Source: Candidatus Cryosericum hinesii
GTDB lineage: Bacteria > Caldisericota > Caldisericia > Cryosericales > Cryosericaceae
Length of the DNA: 64,000 nt
NCBI RefSeq assembly: GCF_003570985.1
Contig: NZ_QXIW01000031.1
Span: forward strand, 62,001 to 126,000
Direction of reading: 5' to 3'
Shown in pieces: positions 49,561 through 59,286 of this stretch. How positions within the stretch are numbered: position 1 is the first letter of the stretch; each line of letters begins with the position of its first letter. The position numbers and the translations under genes are program-made. The notes under the pieces are model-generated. The model had not been told where the DNA came from, did no database searches, and worked only from the letters and a program-made list of their open reading frames with translations.

Positions 49561-49573
49561 TCGGAGAATGGCG

Positions 49574-49996
49574 ATGCAGACGACTAGTGCAGGGAAGATT
49601 AACAGGATTTGGGTTGCAAAGGCGCTGGGGGACCAGACAAGAGCACGCATTGTCGGGCTCCTGGGTGTACGTGCCTTGTGTGTCTGTGAGCTGAAAGTTG
49701 CTTTGAGTCTGTCGCAGGCGACCGTCTCGGATCATCTGCGCGTTCTGGTTGAGGCGGGGCTCCTGATGACGTCCAAGCGGAGCTACTGGACGTTGTATAC
49801 AATTCGCGACGATTTGCCGTCTGGGATCCTCGGCTTTATGTCTCTTCTCACGGCCCAGGTTCATGCCGAGTTTCCCGACGACCGGAACCGCTTGACAGAT
49901 ACTCCTGCGTTTGTCTGTAATGTGATTGCCAAGCCAATGCCCGCTGGACGGCACCAAGCTGAGCAGCACTCTCGAAAGCCCAGTACAAGCAAGTAG
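49574..49996 (+). CDS. arsR: ArsR-family metalloid-responsive repressor 1 (140 aa)
   Basis: A winged-helix ArsR protein. The metal-sensing CVC motif lies in ALCVCELKVAL (Cys36, Cys38), followed by the recognition helix SQATVSDHLRVLVEAGLL. The ATG at 49574 lies eight bases after CGGAG, while an ATG at 49568 is too close. Its release by arsenite or antimonite would free the operator at 49537-49560. It starts an operon with arsD and two arsA genes. Confidence 0.85.
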   Translation: MQTTSAGKINRIWVAKALGDQTRARIVGLLGVRALCVCELKVALSLSQATVSDHLRVLVEAGLLMTSKRSYWTLYTIRDDLPSGILGFMSLLTAQVHAEFPDDRNRLTDTPAFVCNVIAKPMPAGRHQAEQHSRKPSTSK

Positions 49997-50029: not shown

Positions 50030-50344
50030 TTGAAAATCGAGTTCTATGAACCACCTATGTGTTGCACGACGGGGCTGTGTGGACCGTCTGTAGATGAACA
50101 TCTTGTTCAGCTCAATGAAGATCTCAAACGTCTTCAAGGGGAGGAGCCTGGCATGATCGTTGAACGCTATGCGATCAATCAGCAGCCATTCAAGTTTCGC
50201 GACAATGCAGACGTCTATAAGCTAGTAACGGGCAATGGCAAAAAGATCCTTCCGGTGACTACTGTCGACGGCAAGGTTCTCAAGACTATGAGCTACCCAT
50301 CGTACGATGAGATGAAAATTGCACTGACTGGAGGAATAGCATGA
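50030..50344 (+). CDS. arsD: ArsD, metallochaperone for the arsenite pump ATPase (104 aa)
   Basis: The TTG start follows GGAGGTCACG. It opens with IEFYEPPMCCTTGLCGPSVD, which has the three metalloid-binding cysteines (Cys11, Cys12, Cys17) of ArsD. The thioredoxin-like core ends with ILPVTTVDGKVLKTMSYPSY. ArsD carries As(III) or Sb(III) to ArsA. The gene overlaps arsA1 by 4 bp. Confidence 0.9.
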   Translation: MKIEFYEPPMCCTTGLCGPSVDEHLVQLNEDLKRLQGEEPGMIVERYAINQQPFKFRDNADVYKLVTGNGKKILPVTTVDGKVLKTMSYPSYDEMKIALTGGIA

Positions 50345-51228
50345 ATCCTGAGTACGTCTTCTTCTCAGGCAAGGGCGGTGTCGGCAAGACGTCTATGGCA
50401 TGCACGGCGGCGGTCTACCATGCAGACAACGGCAAGAAGACCCTCATCGTCACAACAGACCCGGCATCGAACCTGGCCGACGTATTCGAGCAGCCCATAG
50501 GCCACCACGTAACGCCCATTACCGGTGTTCCCAATCTGTGGGCCATGGAAATCGACCCGGACGAAGCCACCCGTGAGTACAAGGAGCGGTCATTGGCCCC
50601 CATGCGGGGTCTCTTTGACGACGAAATGTTGAAGGTTGTCGAAGAGCAGTTGAGCGGTCCGTGTACAGAAGAAATGGCTTCATTCGACAAGTTCACCGAT
50701 TTCATGGAGGACGACAATTGGGATGTCATCATCTTTGATACGGCGCCAACTGGCCATACGTTGCGACTTCTGGAGCTTCCGGTCGAGTGGAGCAAGCACA
50801 TCAAAGATAGTGCGGAGGGCAGTGGTCAGACATGCATGGGACCCGTCGCCCTGATTCAGGACAGCAAGAAGAAGTACGACGATGCTGTGGCGCGACTTCG
50901 TGACACAAGCCGAACGCAGTTCATCTTCGTCATGCAGGCAGAACAGACATCTCTTGAGGAGACGTCACGTTCGGTCACTGAGCTGGCAGCAATAGGCGTG
51001 ACGACGTCGAGAATCATCGTGAACGGGCTTGTCCCTGAGGCTGAGACGGTGAATCCGTTCTTCCGGAAACGACGCGACATGCAGCTGACATACCTGGAGC
51101 GCGCCAAGCAATCGTATGCGGGGATACCGGTACAGACGATGGAGTTGCTCGACAGTGAGATCAAGGGAGTGGAGATGTTCCGTAAAGTCGCTCCAATGTT
51201 GTTTCAGAGGGGGGCGAGCAATGGCTGA
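50341..51228 (+). CDS. arsA: ArsA half-size ATPase, A1-like (295 aa)
   Basis: The Walker A motif is GKGGVGKTS (residues 10-18) and the ArsA signature DTAPTGHTLRLLELP lies at residues 133-147. Two cysteines match the metalloid site of the A1 half of E. coli ArsA: Cys108 (SGPCTEEMASF, like Cys113) and Cys165 (GQTCMGPVA, like Cys172). It is half the length of the E. coli protein. It energises an efflux pump with the downstream A2-like partner. It overlaps that gene by 8 bp. Confidence 0.9.
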   Translation: MNPEYVFFSGKGGVGKTSMACTAAVYHADNGKKTLIVTTDPASNLADVFEQPIGHHVTPITGVPNLWAMEIDPDEATREYKERSLAPMRGLFDDEMLKVVEEQLSGPCTEEMASFDKFTDFMEDDNWDVIIFDTAPTGHTLRLLELPVEWSKHIKDSAEGSGQTCMGPVALIQDSKKKYDDAVARLRDTSRTQFIFVMQAEQTSLEETSRSVTELAAIGVTTSRIIVNGLVPEAETVNPFFRKRRDMQLTYLERAKQSYAGIPVQTMELLDSEIKGVEMFRKVAPMLFQRGASNG

Positions 51229-52126
51229 CATCGAGAGTTTGTTGCGTCCAAGTGCAAAGGGTGCCAGGCAGGTATTCTTCGCGGGCAAGGGTGGCGTGGG
51301 CAAGACGACCATGGCATGTCTGGCCGCGGTGCATGCTGCCAGACGCGGGTACCGAACTCTGCTCCTCACTACGGATCCTGCGGCACATACTGGCAGCGTG
51401 CTTGGGAAAAAAGTGACGGATCAGGTAGAAGTCATCGACGGCGTCCCGGGGTTGTTTGCCGCCAAGATCGACCAGAAGCAGGCAACAGAGGACTACAAGA
51501 AGGGTATTCTCGACGATGCGCGAGCCAAGTTCGATGAGGACACAATTCGGACGATGACCGAAGAACTGGCCTCCCCCTGCACTGAGGAGATGGCTTCGTT
51601 CCAGCGCTTCATTGACCTTTCGAGTACTCCAGGGTTCGATGTTATCGTCTTCGATACGGCGCCGACGGGTCACACGCTGAGATTGCTCGAGCTGCCTATG
51701 GATTGGAGTGAACAGATCAAGCTCAAGGCCACTGGCGGCACTGAGACATTGTCTGCTGGAGACCGCCAACAGAAGGACCGGTTTGACCGGGCAGTCACGA
51801 CGATGCGGGATCCCGATCTGACGACGTTCAGTTTCGTCATGTATCCCGAGAGCACCCCAATTCTTGAGGCATCCCGCGCATCGGAGGAACTGGCGGGCAT
51901 CGGTGTGGCAACGCAGCTTGTCGTGGCGAACCTGCTGATTGCGGAGGAACAGGCGACGACACCCTTCTTCCAGAAGCGGAGACAGCTTCAGTTGGGATAC
52001 CTGGAAGAGATAAAGCGACGCTTTGCAGAAGCTGCATTGCTACGGGTTCCAATGATGGACAGCGACATTCGTGGTATCGACAAGTTGGACATGCTGGACA
52101 AAATCGTATTTGAGGGAGTTGCATAA
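51221..52126 (+). CDS. arsA: ArsA half-size ATPase, A2-like (301 aa)
   Basis: The Walker A motif is GKGGVGKTT (residues 22-30) and the signature DTAPTGHTLRLLELP is at residues 145-159. It has the Cys of SPCTEEMASF (Cys120, equivalent to Cys422 of the E. coli A2 half) but no second one where A1 has Cys165 (the segment reads GGTETLSAG). The ATG at 51221 lies inside the end of the A1 gene after GAGGGGGGCGAGCA. It pairs with the A1-like protein. Confidence 0.9.
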   Translation: MADIESLLRPSAKGARQVFFAGKGGVGKTTMACLAAVHAARRGYRTLLLTTDPAAHTGSVLGKKVTDQVEVIDGVPGLFAAKIDQKQATEDYKKGILDDARAKFDEDTIRTMTEELASPCTEEMASFQRFIDLSSTPGFDVIVFDTAPTGHTLRLLELPMDWSEQIKLKATGGTETLSAGDRQQKDRFDRAVTTMRDPDLTTFSFVMYPESTPILEASRASEELAGIGVATQLVVANLLIAEEQATTPFFQKRRQLQLGYLEEIKRRFAEAALLRVPMMDSDIRGIDKLDMLDKIVFEGVA

Positions 52127-52506
52127 TGGCAGAGAATGTTGTTCAGATTGATGTCTACGGAATCTGGGACGAGGCTCCTGCAGCCTCGTCGTGCGGCTGT
52201 GGCGGGGGTGGGTGTGGCCCCAACGCTGCGCCAACGCCGACAATGGGCGAGATGTTCGAGAGTCTGAGGACGTCCCTCGGTGCGAGCGATATAGTAGATC
52301 AATGCTCGCTGAGGTTCATAGATGTCATGAAGGACAGCGACTCTCAGGTCAATGAGGTACGTCATCTGGCCGAAAGCGGGTACACTCTGCCACTGACAGC
52401 GTTGAACAGCAAGTGGTCGTTCTATGGTGGCATCTCAAATGATACATTCTACCTTAAGATCAAGGAACTGACCGGCAAGAAGACTGGAGTCGAGACTCGA
52501 CGCTGA
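52126..52506 (+). CDS. Cys-rich protein, possible metalloid carrier, unrecognised (126 aa)
   Basis: It overlaps the ArsA2 gene by one base (TAATG), so it is part of the operon. Residues 21-31 hold a SSCGCGGGGCGP cluster with three cysteines. The remainder looks like a thioredoxin-like fold (LRFIDVMKD, then GYTLPLTALNSKWSFYGGIS), with one more Cys near 60. The build resembles ArsD (N-terminal cysteines on a thioredoxin-like core) without matching its sequence. A second metallochaperone is one option. I do not recognise it as a named family. Confidence 0.65.
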   Translation: MAENVVQIDVYGIWDEAPAASSCGCGGGGCGPNAAPTPTMGEMFESLRTSLGASDIVDQCSLRFIDVMKDSDSQVNEVRHLAESGYTLPLTALNSKWSFYGGISNDTFYLKIKELTGKKTGVETRR

Positions 52507-52799: not shown

Positions 52800-53030
52800 A
52801 TGAACGTATTCTACTGCGACGCATGCCGCACAAAATTTGAGACGGAGGGTACCAGGACTGAGTGGATCGACCGCACGTACGGACCCTGCATACGGTGGAC
52901 CGCAGTATGTCCAACCTGTGGAGCCGAGTGTAGGCTTGCAGAGACTGTCCACGCACAGAGTGGAGGCAGCGGTATCGGCGGATCCATGGACTGGGGCGGA
53001 GGATCGGGGTGCGGGCCGTCCTGCAGGTGA
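52800..53030 (+). CDS. Small zinc-ribbon protein with C-terminal cysteines (76 aa)
   Basis: The ATG at 52800 follows GAGGAGGAGAC. Two zinc-ribbon knuckles are CDAC (residues 6-9) and CPTC (residues 38-41), and the Gly-rich end finishes GGGSGCGPSCR with two further cysteines. It ends in an ATGA overlap with the 28-aa membrane peptide. The neighbourhood suggests a metal-related role. No family name can be given. Confidence 0.65.
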   Translation: MNVFYCDACRTKFETEGTRTEWIDRTYGPCIRWTAVCPTCGAECRLAETVHAQSGGSGIGGSMDWGGGSGCGPSCR

Positions 53031-53199: not shown

Positions 53200-53466
53200 C
53201 TAGCGTGCGTGTTCCTCGATCAACCCGACGACCTCGGTGAAGTCGATGTCATCGGCTTTGGCAGTCTCAAGCGTGGGAACGTAGTCGGCACCCCAGCCGC
53301 GACGCGTCTACACGGCGTCTTGCAGCTTCCTGAACTGCCGCTCGTGGTACAGGCGGAGGTCCGCCAACTTCTCCTTGGTCGATCTGCCGGAGGGGTTATA
53401 GCCGACCTCATTTCACAACTGCGTATCATAGCGGTCTTCCGGTGACAGGCACTCCACTTCCGTCAT
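53200..53466 (-). pseudogene. Decayed C-terminus of an aldehyde ferredoxin oxidoreductase
   Basis: One minus-strand frame aligns with the last 90 residues of the 724-aa protein at 59340-61514: LSPEDRYDTQL, then LADLRLYHERQFRKLQDAV and RRGWGADYVPTLETAKADD, ending FTEVVGLIEEHAR. The frame holds two internal stops, a TGA at 53413-53415 and a TAG at 53308-53310, so it is dead. The beginning of the gene is missing: it meets the end of the ArsR-like gene near 53466. Confidence 0.8.
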
Positions 53467-53809
53467 CGGCGTCGTGCGGTTCGTCCCGGCCGGGGTCGAT
53501 GCCCAGGGACTTCTTCCTGTTTGTCAGGACACACCGCTCTGCACACGAAGCCAAGTCGAGAATGCATGGGACCGTAAGCGAGTAGCGGATTTGCGTGCCG
53601 ATCCTCATGGCGTCTACGAGGCCTGCTTCCTTGAGGAGGGAGAGGTGCTTGGACGCTACGGACTTCTCGACCTCTGCCTCGGCAGCCAGTTCACAGACGC
53701 ACCAAGGTCTGGTGGCAAGCCGAGTGAGCAAGAACACGCGCAACGGGTGAGCCATGGCCTTGAACATATGTGCTGTCAGTTCGCAGTGTATTCTCTCTTG
53801 TTCAGTCAT
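53426..53809 (-). CDS. ArsR-family metalloid-responsive repressor 2 (127 aa)
   Basis: A winged-helix ArsR protein with the sensing motif WCVCELAAEAEV (Cys37, Cys39), then SVASKHLSLLKEAGLV as the recognition helix and further C-terminal cysteines (SCAERC). The ATG at 53809 is used since the upstream extension runs through the operator. No ribosome site is visible, and it may be leaderless. Its last dozen codons run into the oxidoreductase remnant, so the native C-terminus may have been replaced. It is divergent from the split permease genes. Confidence 0.8.
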   Translation of the reverse strand: MTEQERIHCELTAHMFKAMAHPLRVFLLTRLATRPWCVCELAAEAEVEKSVASKHLSLLKEAGLVDAMRIGTQIRYSLTVPCILDLASCAERCVLTNRKKSLGIDPGRDEPHDADDGSGVPVTGRPL

Positions 53810-53837
53810 AATGATATTGTTGCAAGGTTCGGAAACT

Positions 53838-53859
53838 TTGTCAAATTCACTCTTGACAA
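53838..53859. promoter_or_regulatory. Operator between divergent arsR-like gene and split permease
   Basis: Perfect inverted repeat TTGTCAA-N8-TTGACAA, with the same arm-spacer-arm layout as the operator at 49537-49560. Each arm contains a TTGACA -35 for one direction, so one bound repressor would shut both promoters. Confidence 0.65.
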
Positions 53860-53914
53860 GGTTGCTAAGTTGCCGACAATGGAAACATAGCAAATACAAT
53901 ATGGAGAGGTACAT

Positions 53915-54397
53915 GTGGAGAACTTGATTCTGTATGGTGTCGTCGCTGTCCTGTTAGTGTTCTCAATGATCAGAGACAGGGCCAAAACAAAGAAAGCCCT
54001 GATGAAGGGACTCAAGGCGTTTGAGGGCATCCTGTCGCAGTTCCTGATTGTTTTGATGCTTGTCGCGATCGTTCTGGCTGTGTTCGATCCTGCCACAATC
54101 TCGCGGCTGCTCGGTGCCGGCTCGGGTTTCATGGGAATCATGATTGCCTCACTTGTCGGGGCTATCACACTCATTCCTGGATTTGTGGCGTTCCCCGCAG
54201 CGGCAGAGCTGCTCCGGAATGGTGCAGGGGTAACACAGATAGCGGCGTTCGTGTCCTCGCTCATGATGGTTGGCATCGTGACCCTGCCTCTGGAAATCAG
54301 GTACTTTGGCAAGAAAGCGGCCATTGGTCGCAACACCCTTGCCTTCGCGTTTTCCATTGTAGCTGCGCTGTTTGTCGGATGGATGGTAGCAAGATGA
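53915..54397 (+). CDS. Permease, N-terminal half (ArsP/DUF318 type) (160 aa)
   Basis: The GTG start follows GGAGAGGTACAT. There are four predicted membrane helices with the permease motif GSGFMGIMIASLVGAITLIP and GFVAFPAAAELL. It is half the length of family proteins such as the 316-aa one at 56246-57196. The second half is made by the next gene, with a 4-bp overlap. Export of a metalloid or organic metal compound is likely from the family and the ArsR context. Confidence 0.75.
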   Translation: MENLILYGVVAVLLVFSMIRDRAKTKKALMKGLKAFEGILSQFLIVLMLVAIVLAVFDPATISRLLGAGSGFMGIMIASLVGAITLIPGFVAFPAAAELLRNGAGVTQIAAFVSSLMMVGIVTLPLEIRYFGKKAAIGRNTLAFAFSIVAALFVGWMVAR

Positions 54398-54936
54398 CGC
54401 TCAACAGCTTCCTGAAGAAATATCGTGCCACTCTCATGATGGTCGTCATCTTCGTGGCGTTCTTGTTCCTGTTTCCCTCCAAAGCTGCTTGGGCAGAGAA
54501 GTCCCTCTTTGATCAGTTGAGGACCATGTTCCTCGTGATGCCTCCGATTTTCGTCCTGTTGGGACTGCTGGATGTCTGGGTTCCACGAGAGACACTCATC
54601 AGGTACATGGGCAAAGGGTCTGGGCTAAAAGGGACTTCGCTGGGTATTGTCCTGGGTGCTGTTGCTGCAGGGCCTCTGTATGCGGCATTTCCGGTGGCGG
54701 CCGTCCTCATGGACAAGGGAGCCAGCTTCATGAACGTGCTCGTATTCATCGGAGCGTGGTCCACCCTGAAGATACCGATGTTTCTGTTCGAGATGCAGTC
54801 GCTTGGGGCGCGTTTTGCGGTCGCGCGGTTCCTTGTCGATGTCCCCGGCATCTTCCTCATTGCATTCATTTTGAACAAGTTGCTGACCGCGGAGGACGTT
54901 GAGAAGATCTACTCTGCGTCGCACGATGCCAAGTGA
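54394..54936 (+). CDS. Permease, C-terminal half (ArsP/DUF318 type) (180 aa)
   Basis: The ATG at 54394 forms an ATGA overlap with the preceding half-permease. It has about four or five membrane helices and contains the family segments YMGKGSGLKGTSLGIVLGAV and GPLYAAFPVAAVLMDKGAS. With the N-terminal half it would rebuild a full permease of 340 residues. The next gene is a DGC protein, 99 bp downstream. Confidence 0.75.
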   Translation: MTLNSFLKKYRATLMMVVIFVAFLFLFPSKAAWAEKSLFDQLRTMFLVMPPIFVLLGLLDVWVPRETLIRYMGKGSGLKGTSLGIVLGAVAAGPLYAAFPVAAVLMDKGASFMNVLVFIGAWSTLKIPMFLFEMQSLGARFAVARFLVDVPGIFLIAFILNKLLTAEDVEKIYSASHDAK

Positions 54937-55035
54937 TTCTCTGCAACTCCGGTCGTGGACCGCGTCGGGTAGAGTGCAGGGAAGGTGTTGTCGAGCGCAC
55001 AGATCACTGAATTGCTGACCAAGGAGGCTACTACT

Positions 55036-55419
55036 ATGGAAAGCTCTTGCACATCTGGTTCAAAGGTTCTTCTTTACTCCTGTTCTGGCGCTGCGAATAC
55101 GGGCTATCTTGCCGATCAAATCGCACGAAAGCTCTTTGCTGACGGAGTAGGAAAGATGACGTGTTTGGCAGCGGTGGGAGCAGGCAACTCCGGATATGTA
55201 GAGACTGCACGTACTGCCGACTTGGTGGTCGTGATCGATGGTTGCCCAGTGTCGTGTGGCAAACAGATCATGGATAAACTCGGCATCCGTCAGCTGCACG
55301 TTGCTACGACGGATCTTGGTATCGAAAAGGGCAAGACAGCCATTACGGCCGACGTCATCGACAATGTCACCGAGAAAGTCCGGACACTCATCTGTGATGA
55401 ATTGAAACGTGTCAAGTAG
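55036..55419 (+). CDS. DGC-domain putative metal-binding protein (127 aa)
   Basis: The DGC family (putative zinc-binding) is shown by the motif VVIDGCPVSCGKQIMD near residues 71-86, with an early YSCSGAANTGYLADQIA and MTCLAAVGAGNSGYVETA. Cysteines at these three spots probably bind metal. AAGGAGG lies eight bases before the ATG. It follows the split permease and probably works in metal or metalloid handling. Confidence 0.8.
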   Translation: MESSCTSGSKVLLYSCSGAANTGYLADQIARKLFADGVGKMTCLAAVGAGNSGYVETARTADLVVVIDGCPVSCGKQIMDKLGIRQLHVATTDLGIEKGKTAITADVIDNVTEKVRTLICDELKRVK

Positions 55420-55811: not shown

Positions 55812-56138
55812 ATGATCCAGCGTGTGCCGGTTAGTGGAGTACAGGACATAGGTACGGACTGGAACTCCGTATGCGAGGAGCAGGCGAAGTTTGTGTCAGT
55901 TCTGGTGGGCCTGCAGCGCATCAAGATTTTGAGGTTGCTGCGTGGCGGAGAACTGTGTGTCTGCGACATCGAGCACGCGCTCGGTATCCCACAGAACCTG
56001 GTTTCGCATCACTTGAGGGTCCTGCGCGAGGCTGGGCTTGTCTCTGCTCGCAAGGAGGGGCAGTTCGTGTACTACTCGCGCGTCGAGGACCGCATTCTTC
56101 AGTTGACACAAGCCTTGACAGGATTGCTGTCAACATAG
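55812..56138 (+). CDS. ArsR-family metalloid-responsive repressor 3 (108 aa)
   Basis: The protein has LLRGGELCVCDIEHALGIP with the sensor cysteines at 49 and 51, then QNLVSHHLRVLREAGLVSAR as DNA-binding helix. It is the same CVC class as the other two but differs in sequence and operator. It is followed by a hairpin with a T-run and then the full-length permease. Confidence 0.85.
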   Translation: MIQRVPVSGVQDIGTDWNSVCEEQAKFVSVLVGLQRIKILRLLRGGELCVCDIEHALGIPQNLVSHHLRVLREAGLVSARKEGQFVYYSRVEDRILQLTQALTGLLST

Positions 56139-56245: not shown

Positions 56246-57196
56246 ATGCTGACACTGTTTGCTGACTGGTTCACCTACACGCTTTTGCGCCTGCCAAAGG
56301 GGCGCCTGATAACGGAAGCCATTCACTTCTTCGTGTACGACATCCCTAAAATCTACCTGCTCCTCGTCGTTATCGTGTTTGTGGTTGCTATGCTCAGAAC
56401 CTGGATTCCCGCCGAAAAGATCAAACGTCTACTCGTTCACCGGCACCAGTTCGTCGGCAATGTCCTTGCTGCTTCTCTGGGCATTTTCACCCCCTTCTGC
56501 ACGTGCTCTGCCATTCCGATGTTCATTGGATTCGTGGAGTCCGGCGTACCGCTTGGGGTGACATTCTCGTTTCTGGTGGCAAGCCCTATGATCAACGAGG
56601 TCGCGATGGTGCTGCTATGGGGACTGTTTGGAGCCAGGGTCGCCTTGCTCTATGTGGGTGTGGGGCTCCTTATCGCGATTGTGTCGGGTGTCATCATCAC
56701 TCGGCTTCACATGGAGAAGTACGTTGAGGATTATGTCTACATGATCAAGGTCGGCGCTGCTGCAGGGGATGCTCCCATGACCTTCAAGGATCGCGTCGTT
56801 GCCAGCTGGAGATACGTGGGCGAGATCTTCCGCAAAGTGGCTCCATGGGTGGCGGTCGGCGTTGCCATCGGTGCATTCATCCATGGGTACGCTCCCGAGA
56901 ATTTCCTGGCCAGATACGCAGGTCGTGACAATCCCTTTGCGGTTCTCATCGCCGTTGCGATCGGTATTCCTCTCTATTCGAATGCCGAGGGCGTCATTCC
57001 TGTCGTTCAGGCGTTGTGGGCCAAGGGTCTGCCTCTAGGGACAACGCTGGCTTTCATGATGGCTGTCACCGGACTCTCGATGCCGGAGATGATTATCCTG
57101 CGCCGCGTTCTCAAGCCAAGGCTGCTTGCAACATTCATCGGTGTCGTGGGCGTCGGTATTCTCATCGTGGGGTATTTCTTCAACTGGGTCCTGTAA
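56246..57196 (+). CDS. Full-length permease (ArsP/DUF318 type) (316 aa)
   Basis: An eight-helix permease with the conserved FTPFCTCSAIPMFIGFVESG (two Cys of the family's active segment), VASPMINEVAMVLL and GIPLYSNAEGVIPVVQAL. Relatives export trivalent organoarsenicals or are linked to other metals. CGGAGGTTGCT precedes the ATG. Its last 44 codons were copied recently to 59119-59253, with one base change in 135. It is controlled by the ArsR just upstream. Confidence 0.85.
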   Translation: MLTLFADWFTYTLLRLPKGRLITEAIHFFVYDIPKIYLLLVVIVFVVAMLRTWIPAEKIKRLLVHRHQFVGNVLAASLGIFTPFCTCSAIPMFIGFVESGVPLGVTFSFLVASPMINEVAMVLLWGLFGARVALLYVGVGLLIAIVSGVIITRLHMEKYVEDYVYMIKVGAAAGDAPMTFKDRVVASWRYVGEIFRKVAPWVAVGVAIGAFIHGYAPENFLARYAGRDNPFAVLIAVAIGIPLYSNAEGVIPVVQALWAKGLPLGTTLAFMMAVTGLSMPEMIILRRVLKPRLLATFIGVVGVGILIVGYFFNWVL

Positions 57197-57230
57197 CCGT
57201 CCGCAGGACACCCAATTTGGATCAGCAAGA

Positions 57231-59118: not shown

Positions 59119-59253
59119 GCTGTCACTGGACTCTCGATGCCGGAGATGATTATCCTGCGCCGCGTTCTCAAGCCAAGGCTGCTTGCAACATTCATCGGTG
59201 TCGTGGGCGTCGGTATTCTCATCGTGGGGTATTTCTTCAACTGGGTCCTGTAA
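59119..59253 (+). pseudogene. Duplicated permease C-terminus (44 codons)
   Basis: The 135 bp repeat 57062-57196 with one base change, including the stop. A longer reading frame from 58774 runs antisense through the OsmC gene before reaching it, and is not a gene. There is no start codon for the copied part. Confidence 0.85.
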
Positions 59254-59286
59254 CTGTAGACGATGCGCCTCTCCTGAACAGCAAAG

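Follow-up and report, generated by a model that had tools for sequence, protein, structure and literature searches.

We analyzed a window of 64,000 nucleotides from Candidatus Cryosericum hinesii, which is part of contig C25 of a genome of 1.94 Mb that is 80% complete. The window contains an ars operon whose genes lie on the forward strand unless stated otherwise. An ArsR/SmtB-family repressor gene (49568-49996; Pfam HTH_5, 1e-11; NF033788 above its cut-off) is followed by a gene for an ArsD metallochaperone with a TTG start (50030-50344; NF033727, 106.7 bits with a cut-off of 90; Pfam ArsD, 5e-29), and we take Cys11, Cys12, and Cys17 of this ArsD to occupy the positions of Cys12-Cys13-Cys18 of Escherichia coli ArsD. 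The 3' end of arsD shares 4 nt with arsA1 (50341-51228), which encodes a first ArsA half of 295 amino acids (Pfam ArsA_ATPase, 7e-81; positions 12-295 of the 617 of NF041417). The second half, 301 amino acids in length, is encoded by arsA2 (51221-52126, with its ATG at 51221; Pfam ArsA_ATPase, 5e-66; positions 322-612 of NF041417). The two genes overlap by 8 nt (ATGGCTGA, 51221-51228), a stretch that holds the TGA stop of arsA1 and the ATG start of arsA2.

Directly behind arsA2, at its last position, starts a gene for a predicted thioredoxin-fold protein with the motif Cys23-x-Cys25-x4-Cys30 (52126-52506), which we characterized by a fold model, profiles, and homologues. Next comes a small Cys-rich protein without a Pfam match (52800-53030), whose CxxC pairs resemble those of zinc ribbons and whose tail reads GCGPSC. 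Further downstream lie an ArsR-family regulator gene on the reverse strand (53429-53914; Pfam/NCBIfam model matches) and two genes for half-permeases of the SO_0444/ArsP_1-like kind, i.e., a weakly matching N-half (53915-54397; NF033936 positions 9-125 of 351, 5e-4, below the cut-off) and a C-half (54379-54936; NF033936 positions 205-319 of 351, a weak 0.005; Pfam ArsP_1, a clear 1.6e-13). The two genes overlap, and each matches one half (N or C) of the model for SO_0444-type permeases; they form another "split" pair next to that of ArsA. A DGC-domain protein (54985-55419; Pfam, 4.5e-27) and another ArsR-family regulator (55812-56138; Pfam/NCBIfam model matches) precede the gene for an ArsP-type permease, the candidate membrane partner (56246-57196; Pfam ArsP_1, 1.5e-76). 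A direct repeat of 139 nt (99%) occupies 57062-57200 and 59119-59257 of the window; a second copy of the 3' end of the ArsP-type gene thus lies 2 kb downstream, which points to past rearrangement.

We found that the start/stop overlap ATGNNTGA between arsA1 and arsA2 is kept in 8 of 8 aligned Cryosericum contigs (one identical to the window) amid surrounding sequence that varies, which rules out an assembly frameshift as the cause of the split. A purine-rich stretch (AGAGGGGGG) lies ahead of the overlap. Programmed frameshifting at its GGGGGG run was also ruled out, since other Cryosericum contigs retain ATGNNTGA but not this run. Both genes are under purifying selection, with dN/dS values of 0.05-0.08 for arsA1 and arsA2 (two comparisons each).

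The nearest named relatives of ArsA1 (88-91% identity) belong to Candidatus Cryosericum species and to metagenome-assembled genomes labeled Caldiserica or plain bacterium. Matches of the ArsA1/ArsA2 type were found in 8 of 15 genomes (that of the window and 14 others from its genus), which indicates that the ars operon is patchy within the genus. Two arsA1/arsA2 copies on separate contigs, both with an ArsA1 frame that is broken or altered, were observed in the assembly of Ca. C. odellii SMC5 (L009 and L046) and in that of G006. The ArsA1 of the SMC5 contig L046 is 100% identical to that of the window but broken, and its ArsA2 part is identical to the window ArsA2. The G006 assembly has 10% contamination, so its two copies may be due to assembly mixing. 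Our literature search found no paper that links Cryosericum with arsenic.

Metalloid ligands of ArsA1 and ArsA2

ArsA1 contains three cysteines (Cys21, Cys108, and Cys165) and ArsA2 contains two (Cys33 and Cys120). We aligned both proteins to the structure of fused E. coli ArsA (1F48). In ArsA1, Cys108, His139, and Cys165 align with Cys113, His148, and Cys172, respectively; in ArsA2, Ser118, Cys120, and His151 align with Ser420, Cys422, and His453, and no residue is equivalent to Cys172. Together, the two chains thus contain the full set of six metalloid ligands known from E. coli ArsA; the list in PMC2440759 includes His148, Ser420, and His451/453. The alignment bears out the original prediction that Cys108 and Cys165 of ArsA1 correspond to Cys113 and Cys172 of the A1 half. 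It also confirms that Cys120 of ArsA2 corresponds to Cys422, while the accompanying claim that Cys120 is the only cysteine of ArsA2 does not hold to the letter, since Cys33 is also present; the prediction names neither Cys33 nor Cys21. Cys33 and ArsA1 Cys21 share the column of Cys26 in the E. coli A1 half, which is not listed as a ligand.

The GKGGVGKT and DTAPTGH motifs are intact in both proteins, as in ArsA of arsenite pumps: the P-loop and DTAPTGH are at residues 10 and 133-139 in ArsA1, and at residues 22 and 145-151 in ArsA2. The window pair therefore shares both P-loops, both DTAPTGH motifs, and six ligands with the ArsA of E. coli R773, which differs in that it is one chain with a linker and has ArsB as its partner; plasmid ArsA of the R773 type is approximately 40-45% identical to the first half of the window. 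Models of fused ArsA matched the window proteins over half the model length only, with 303 bits (ArsA1) and 216 bits (ArsA2) for TIGR04291 (cut-off, 650 bits) and 355 and 288 bits for NF041417 (cut-off, 800 bits). NF041417, which represents haloarchaeal fused ArsA, is the best family model for both window proteins, half for half. Haloarchaeal ArsA differs in being one chain, and it is followed by the CC-star proteins HcsL/HcsS where the window has the thioredoxin-fold protein. Small proteins that end in CC or CCG and resemble HcsL also lie behind fused arsA in Chloroflexota (L011-L014, L024, L036, L039, and L147). Other small proteins near arsA are zinc-ribbon-like with Gly/Cys-rich tails, i.e., the window protein with the GCGPSC tail (52800-53030), one in L018 (GGCCGSGGCCG), and one in L025, the latter two behind arsA.

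We questioned how general the cysteine asymmetry between the halves is. From the fetched loci we assembled a set of 110 distinct half-pairs (two separate genes in 43, one fused gene in 67) after removal of halves below 230 amino acids and of identical pairs. An equivalent of Cys113 is present in 110 of 110 first halves and an equivalent of Cys172 in 109 of 110, the exception being a plasmid ArsA from E. coli with Asn at this site; PMC2963123 mentions a similar exception. Second halves contain an equivalent of Cys422 in 110 of 110 cases, and none of the 110 has a cysteine within 10 columns of the Cys172 column. The asymmetry of fused ArsA is therefore reproduced by two-gene pairs, as was claimed for the window, and is no coincidence: it holds in 43 of 43 such pairs and, with one exception at one site, in the 67 fused proteins. 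Single-gene Get3/ArsA homologues contain Gly at the position of Cys113/Cys422 in 31 of 32 cases, where both window proteins have Cys, and the one deviating row is apparently an ArsA2 from Cryosericum, left single because its partner was dropped as too short. PMC2963123 stated in 2010 that single-domain proteins conserve none of the three cysteines; the two-gene pairs of our set are exceptions to that statement.

Two-gene pairs and fused ArsA

Two-gene pairs look widespread and are spread across Bacillota. The rates in our samples are only roughly comparable because the E limits differ. Counts were made from frame lengths, and phylum names, except for named loci, were taken from the named center of each search. 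Pairs were found in 9 of 38 matching Bacillota genomes (398 searched, E up to 1e-45), 20 of 28 in the class of G375 (154 searched, up to 1e-50), 7 of 7 in the class of G088 (59 searched, 1e-50), 5 of 5 in the class of G298 (26 searched, 1e-70), and 1 of 5 in Chloroflexota (201 searched, 1e-70). Nearly all of the Nitrospirota sample has fused ArsA (24 genomes matched among 245, 1e-50), and no two-gene pair was seen in the sample of the haloarchaeal phylum (7 genomes matched among 196, one through fragments alone, 1e-45). The arrangement is already known from Alkaliphilus metalliredigens, a point absent from the original prediction, and is little studied; our literature searches for two-gene ArsA found papers that cite Fu et al. 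2010 or that, judging by listings and passages, are on other subjects.

The customary account of fused ArsA, given in PMC2963123, is a single intragenic duplication. We built a tree of 100 halves taken from 50 loci, in which 37 of 97 forks are open; first halves and second halves form two groups with 100% SH-aLRT. ArsA1 and ArsA2 of the window fall in opposite groups, each beside its counterpart from fused ArsA, which excludes a recent duplication; the outcome that the original prediction named as its refutation, with both proteins grouping together, was thus not observed. In both half subtrees, the E. coli type is nested among two-gene Bacillota pairs. An earlier half tree was rooted on Get3-like rows, after 17 half-domains below 230 amino acids had been removed from its row set; its root was not resolved and the first halves were not one clade.

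For a careful concatenated tree, the 110 half-pairs were reduced to 76 (34 removed by hand, mostly near-duplicates) and then to 52 (24 more by hand), and L044, which has an in-frame TAG, was left out as a doubtful "split." The gene state changes at least 5 times in this tree. Placing all fused rows in one clade was rejected (AU p 0.0024), as was one clade of the fused rows without the E. coli type (AU p 0.0075), and a grouping of the window's group with the L118/L200 pairs was not rejected (AU p 0.365), p values that are optimistic because the tested groups were named after a tree had been viewed. Over all 102 root edges, histories with fusions only cost at least 5 changes and those with fissions only at least 8, with an unconstrained minimum of 5. 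Fusion-only histories were cheaper than fission-only ones in 300 of the 300 bootstrap trees examined (of 1000), and mixed histories of fusion and fission also cost 5.

Because the fused rows do not form one clade, with or without the E. coli type, and histories of fusion only cost less (5 versus 8) and equal the unconstrained minimum, our data lean, by a small margin of confidence, toward the window pair representing the ancestral two-gene state, with fused ArsA arising from several independent fusions, at least 5 on the present tree. The root is unsettled, however, the parsimony costs come from 52 rows picked from 110, and the half tree has its share of open forks. The loci were also sampled by similarity to the first half of the window, which favors relatives of its type, and fused linkers are alike in length across lineages, which would fit a single fusion too. 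The original prediction had offered the pair as a state before fusion or a later split; the former is favored though not proven, and the latter is still allowed by the mixed histories.

A derived fission is the less probable account, though a considerable one: a frameshift or a new stop and start in the linker of a fused ancestor would have separated the halves, and the split form would then have spread among Cryosericum and clostridia. The two frames are one base apart, ArsA2 retains the closing part of the linker motif (LLxP..G..R, ahead of its P-loop), and the window group belongs to a set at whose base lies L166, a fused row. Among named relatives outside Cryosericum, the closest ones (Chloroflexota and others, which share 53-61% identity across most of the half) nearly all have fused ArsA. 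A late fission read from these named loci alone is weakened, however, because closer relatives in Bacillota (63-73% identity) are two-gene pairs. Mixed histories with a fission in the window's group remain as cheap as any, but fission-only histories need at least 8 changes, and the split lineages form a deep grade in Bacillota inside which the E. coli type nests. That the pair is instead two recently duplicated ArsA/Get3-like genes that act as independent homodimers is highly improbable, even though they are adjacent and the genome also encodes, at C20:77345-78274, a Get3-like ArsA homologue of the single-gene kind that lacks the cysteines. Each window protein joins its counterpart half of fused ArsA in the tree rather than the other window protein, and the ligands of the two complement one another instead of being repeated.

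Should the two-gene state be the ancestral one and fusion have recurred, such pairs would be natural material on why the halves joined, and the roles of the two ATP sites could be separated without cutting a linker.

Proposed mechanism and membrane partner

We are confident that ArsA1 and ArsA2 are the separate halves of an arsenite-stimulated ArsA ATPase, most likely a pseudo-symmetric heterodimer that is fed by ArsD and energizes a permease. The heterodimer is suggested by the ligand set split over two chains and by the pair reported from A. metalliredigens, and metal binding and ATP-driven efflux are predicted as well. ArsA1 and ArsA2 would be made as separate proteins, probably by coupled translation, and the adjacent ArsD would hand As(III) to them. 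As(III) would then be held at the heterodimer interface by ligands from both partners, presumably paired as in E. coli ArsA, i.e., Cys108 with Cys120, Cys165 with His151, and His139 with Ser118. Its binding may close the two nucleotide sites and lead to ATP hydrolysis, which would energize the membrane permease.

The gene order arsR-arsD-arsA1-arsA2 recurs in most loci scanned. In A. metalliredigens, too, two adjacent single-domain arsA genes correspond to the N and C halves and lie in an ars operon (here with arsR and arsD). Fu, Rosen, and Bhattacharjee reportedly found in 2010 that this ArsA is active as a complex of two proteins. According to PMC2963123, the two single-domain arsA genes together with acr3 raised the arsenite resistance of E. 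coli. The operon of A. metalliredigens differs in that it contains acr3, whereas a profile search of the window's own genome (80% complete) gave no match to Acr3 (TIGR00832) and an ArsP-type permease gene lies downstream.

An ArsP-type gene is found downstream of the pair in 6 of the 7 Cryosericum loci over 8 kb. Using phmmer with single queries to label permeases at relatives' loci, we observed an Acr3-like gene near several clostridial-type pairs, an ArsB-like gene near three G375-type pairs, and an Acr3-like open reading frame near the pair of the relative L008. ArsP is an exporter of organoarsenicals. The ArsP-type permease is the best local candidate for the energized partner in Cryosericum and our first guess, to which we give even chances. 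Coupling of ArsP to ArsA has been put forward, in PMC2963123, as a proposal only.

The gene behind arsA2 and its candidate selenoprotein homologues

The protein encoded at 52126-52506 has no Pfam match and no family model above its cut-off, with only a meaningless match in NCBIfam at 0.046. Apart from L008, the Cryosericum loci with sufficient flanking sequence contain a homologue; others were found in two-gene loci of the clostridial type, and more distant ones elsewhere. A plasmid search with the protein gave no match, and twenty further regions around ArsA contained no new member of the core family. The fold model is thioredoxin-like, with a mean pLDDT of 74 and a Cys loop below 50. A Foldseek search with the model placed 1xg8 (YuzD/DUF1462) first and ArsD (3mwh) next; 5 of the top 8 rows were ArsD chains, and no row had E <0.001. 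The VIA list was also led by 1xg8 (Z 10.1, rmsd 3.0, 104 aligned), followed by thioredoxins, and ArsD was absent among the rows shown. With a sequence profile, the best solved relatives were 1xg8 (2e-5) and then thioredoxin 1fo5 (6e-4). Model and profile thus support a thioredoxin fold for this protein, a type of fold shared by YuzD, thioredoxins, and ArsD.

Kinship of the family with ArsD is suggested by several comparisons. The Cys loop and the LPxTxxNG strand are in register with those of ArsD, profile-profile comparison with ArsD gave a probability of 65%, and the family profile finds ArsD proteins at E values of 0.0015-0.008. The sequence link is weak, however: the ArsD model gave no match to the window copy and one of 0.013-0.027, below the cut-off, to the homologue in L029. 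ArsD also differs in its loop, which is CC-x4-C, whereas that of the family is CxC-x4-C (or UxC, CxU). The protein may carry As(III).

We found in-frame TGA codons at cysteine positions, with coding sequence on both sides, in 6 of 16 distinct family members with E <1e-20. In Bacillota homologues, the TGA replaces Cys23 in L112 (position 3343), L114 (3343), L149 (522, reverse strand), and L116 (3340), and Cys25 in L216 (10647) and L029 (2171). L112 equals L114 at the gene and L149 is close to both, so these represent approximately four independent lineages. Conservation of the reading frame extends to either side of the TGA, and TGA is not simply reassigned, because the same genes of L112, L114, and L149 terminate at TGA. 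SelB was found above its cut-off in 6 of 6 genomes with a TGA form, as well as in five further genomes without one, and in 0 of 4 Cryosericum genomes tested. A tRNA-Sec gene lies beside selB in three of five selB loci scanned (L235, L236, and L237; not L233 or L238). The published bSECIS rule, as given in section 5 of PMC13188914, applies to 5 of 6 TGA contexts (two of them identical) and to 107 of 529 control windows, and ViennaRNA folding energies of the TGA contexts were not clearly better than those of shuffled sequences. The sequences strongly indicate that the family includes selenoproteins, and the window copy is all-cysteine.

No ArsA- or ArsD-linked selenoprotein family appeared among the listed titles and abstract openings from our literature search or in Table 1 of PMC13188914. 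That table lists a Trx-like Sec.1/Sec.2 family, which corresponds to PF13192 in PMC5330540; our family does not match it in Pfam. We hold it slightly better than even that 52126-52506 represents an undescribed thioredoxin-fold family of arsenite handling, i.e., a second ArsD-like carrier for two-gene ArsA, in which the CxC thiols are a selenocysteine-cysteine pair (UxC or CxU) in selenocysteine-using Bacillota and which is all-cysteine in Cryosericum. If so, selenium would be built into an arsenic-efflux system. Such a Cys/Sec family would place selenocysteine beside an arsenic efflux ATPase, and tight binding of As(III) by selenolate is a possible reason. New here are the breadth of two-gene ArsA, the likely direction of change, and this candidate selenoprotein family, which is the most novel part.

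The TGA copy of L029 lies just ahead of arsD and not behind arsA, and that of L216 lies well downstream of arsA2. Strict adjacency to arsA2 is therefore a feature only of Cryosericum and some clostridial-type loci.
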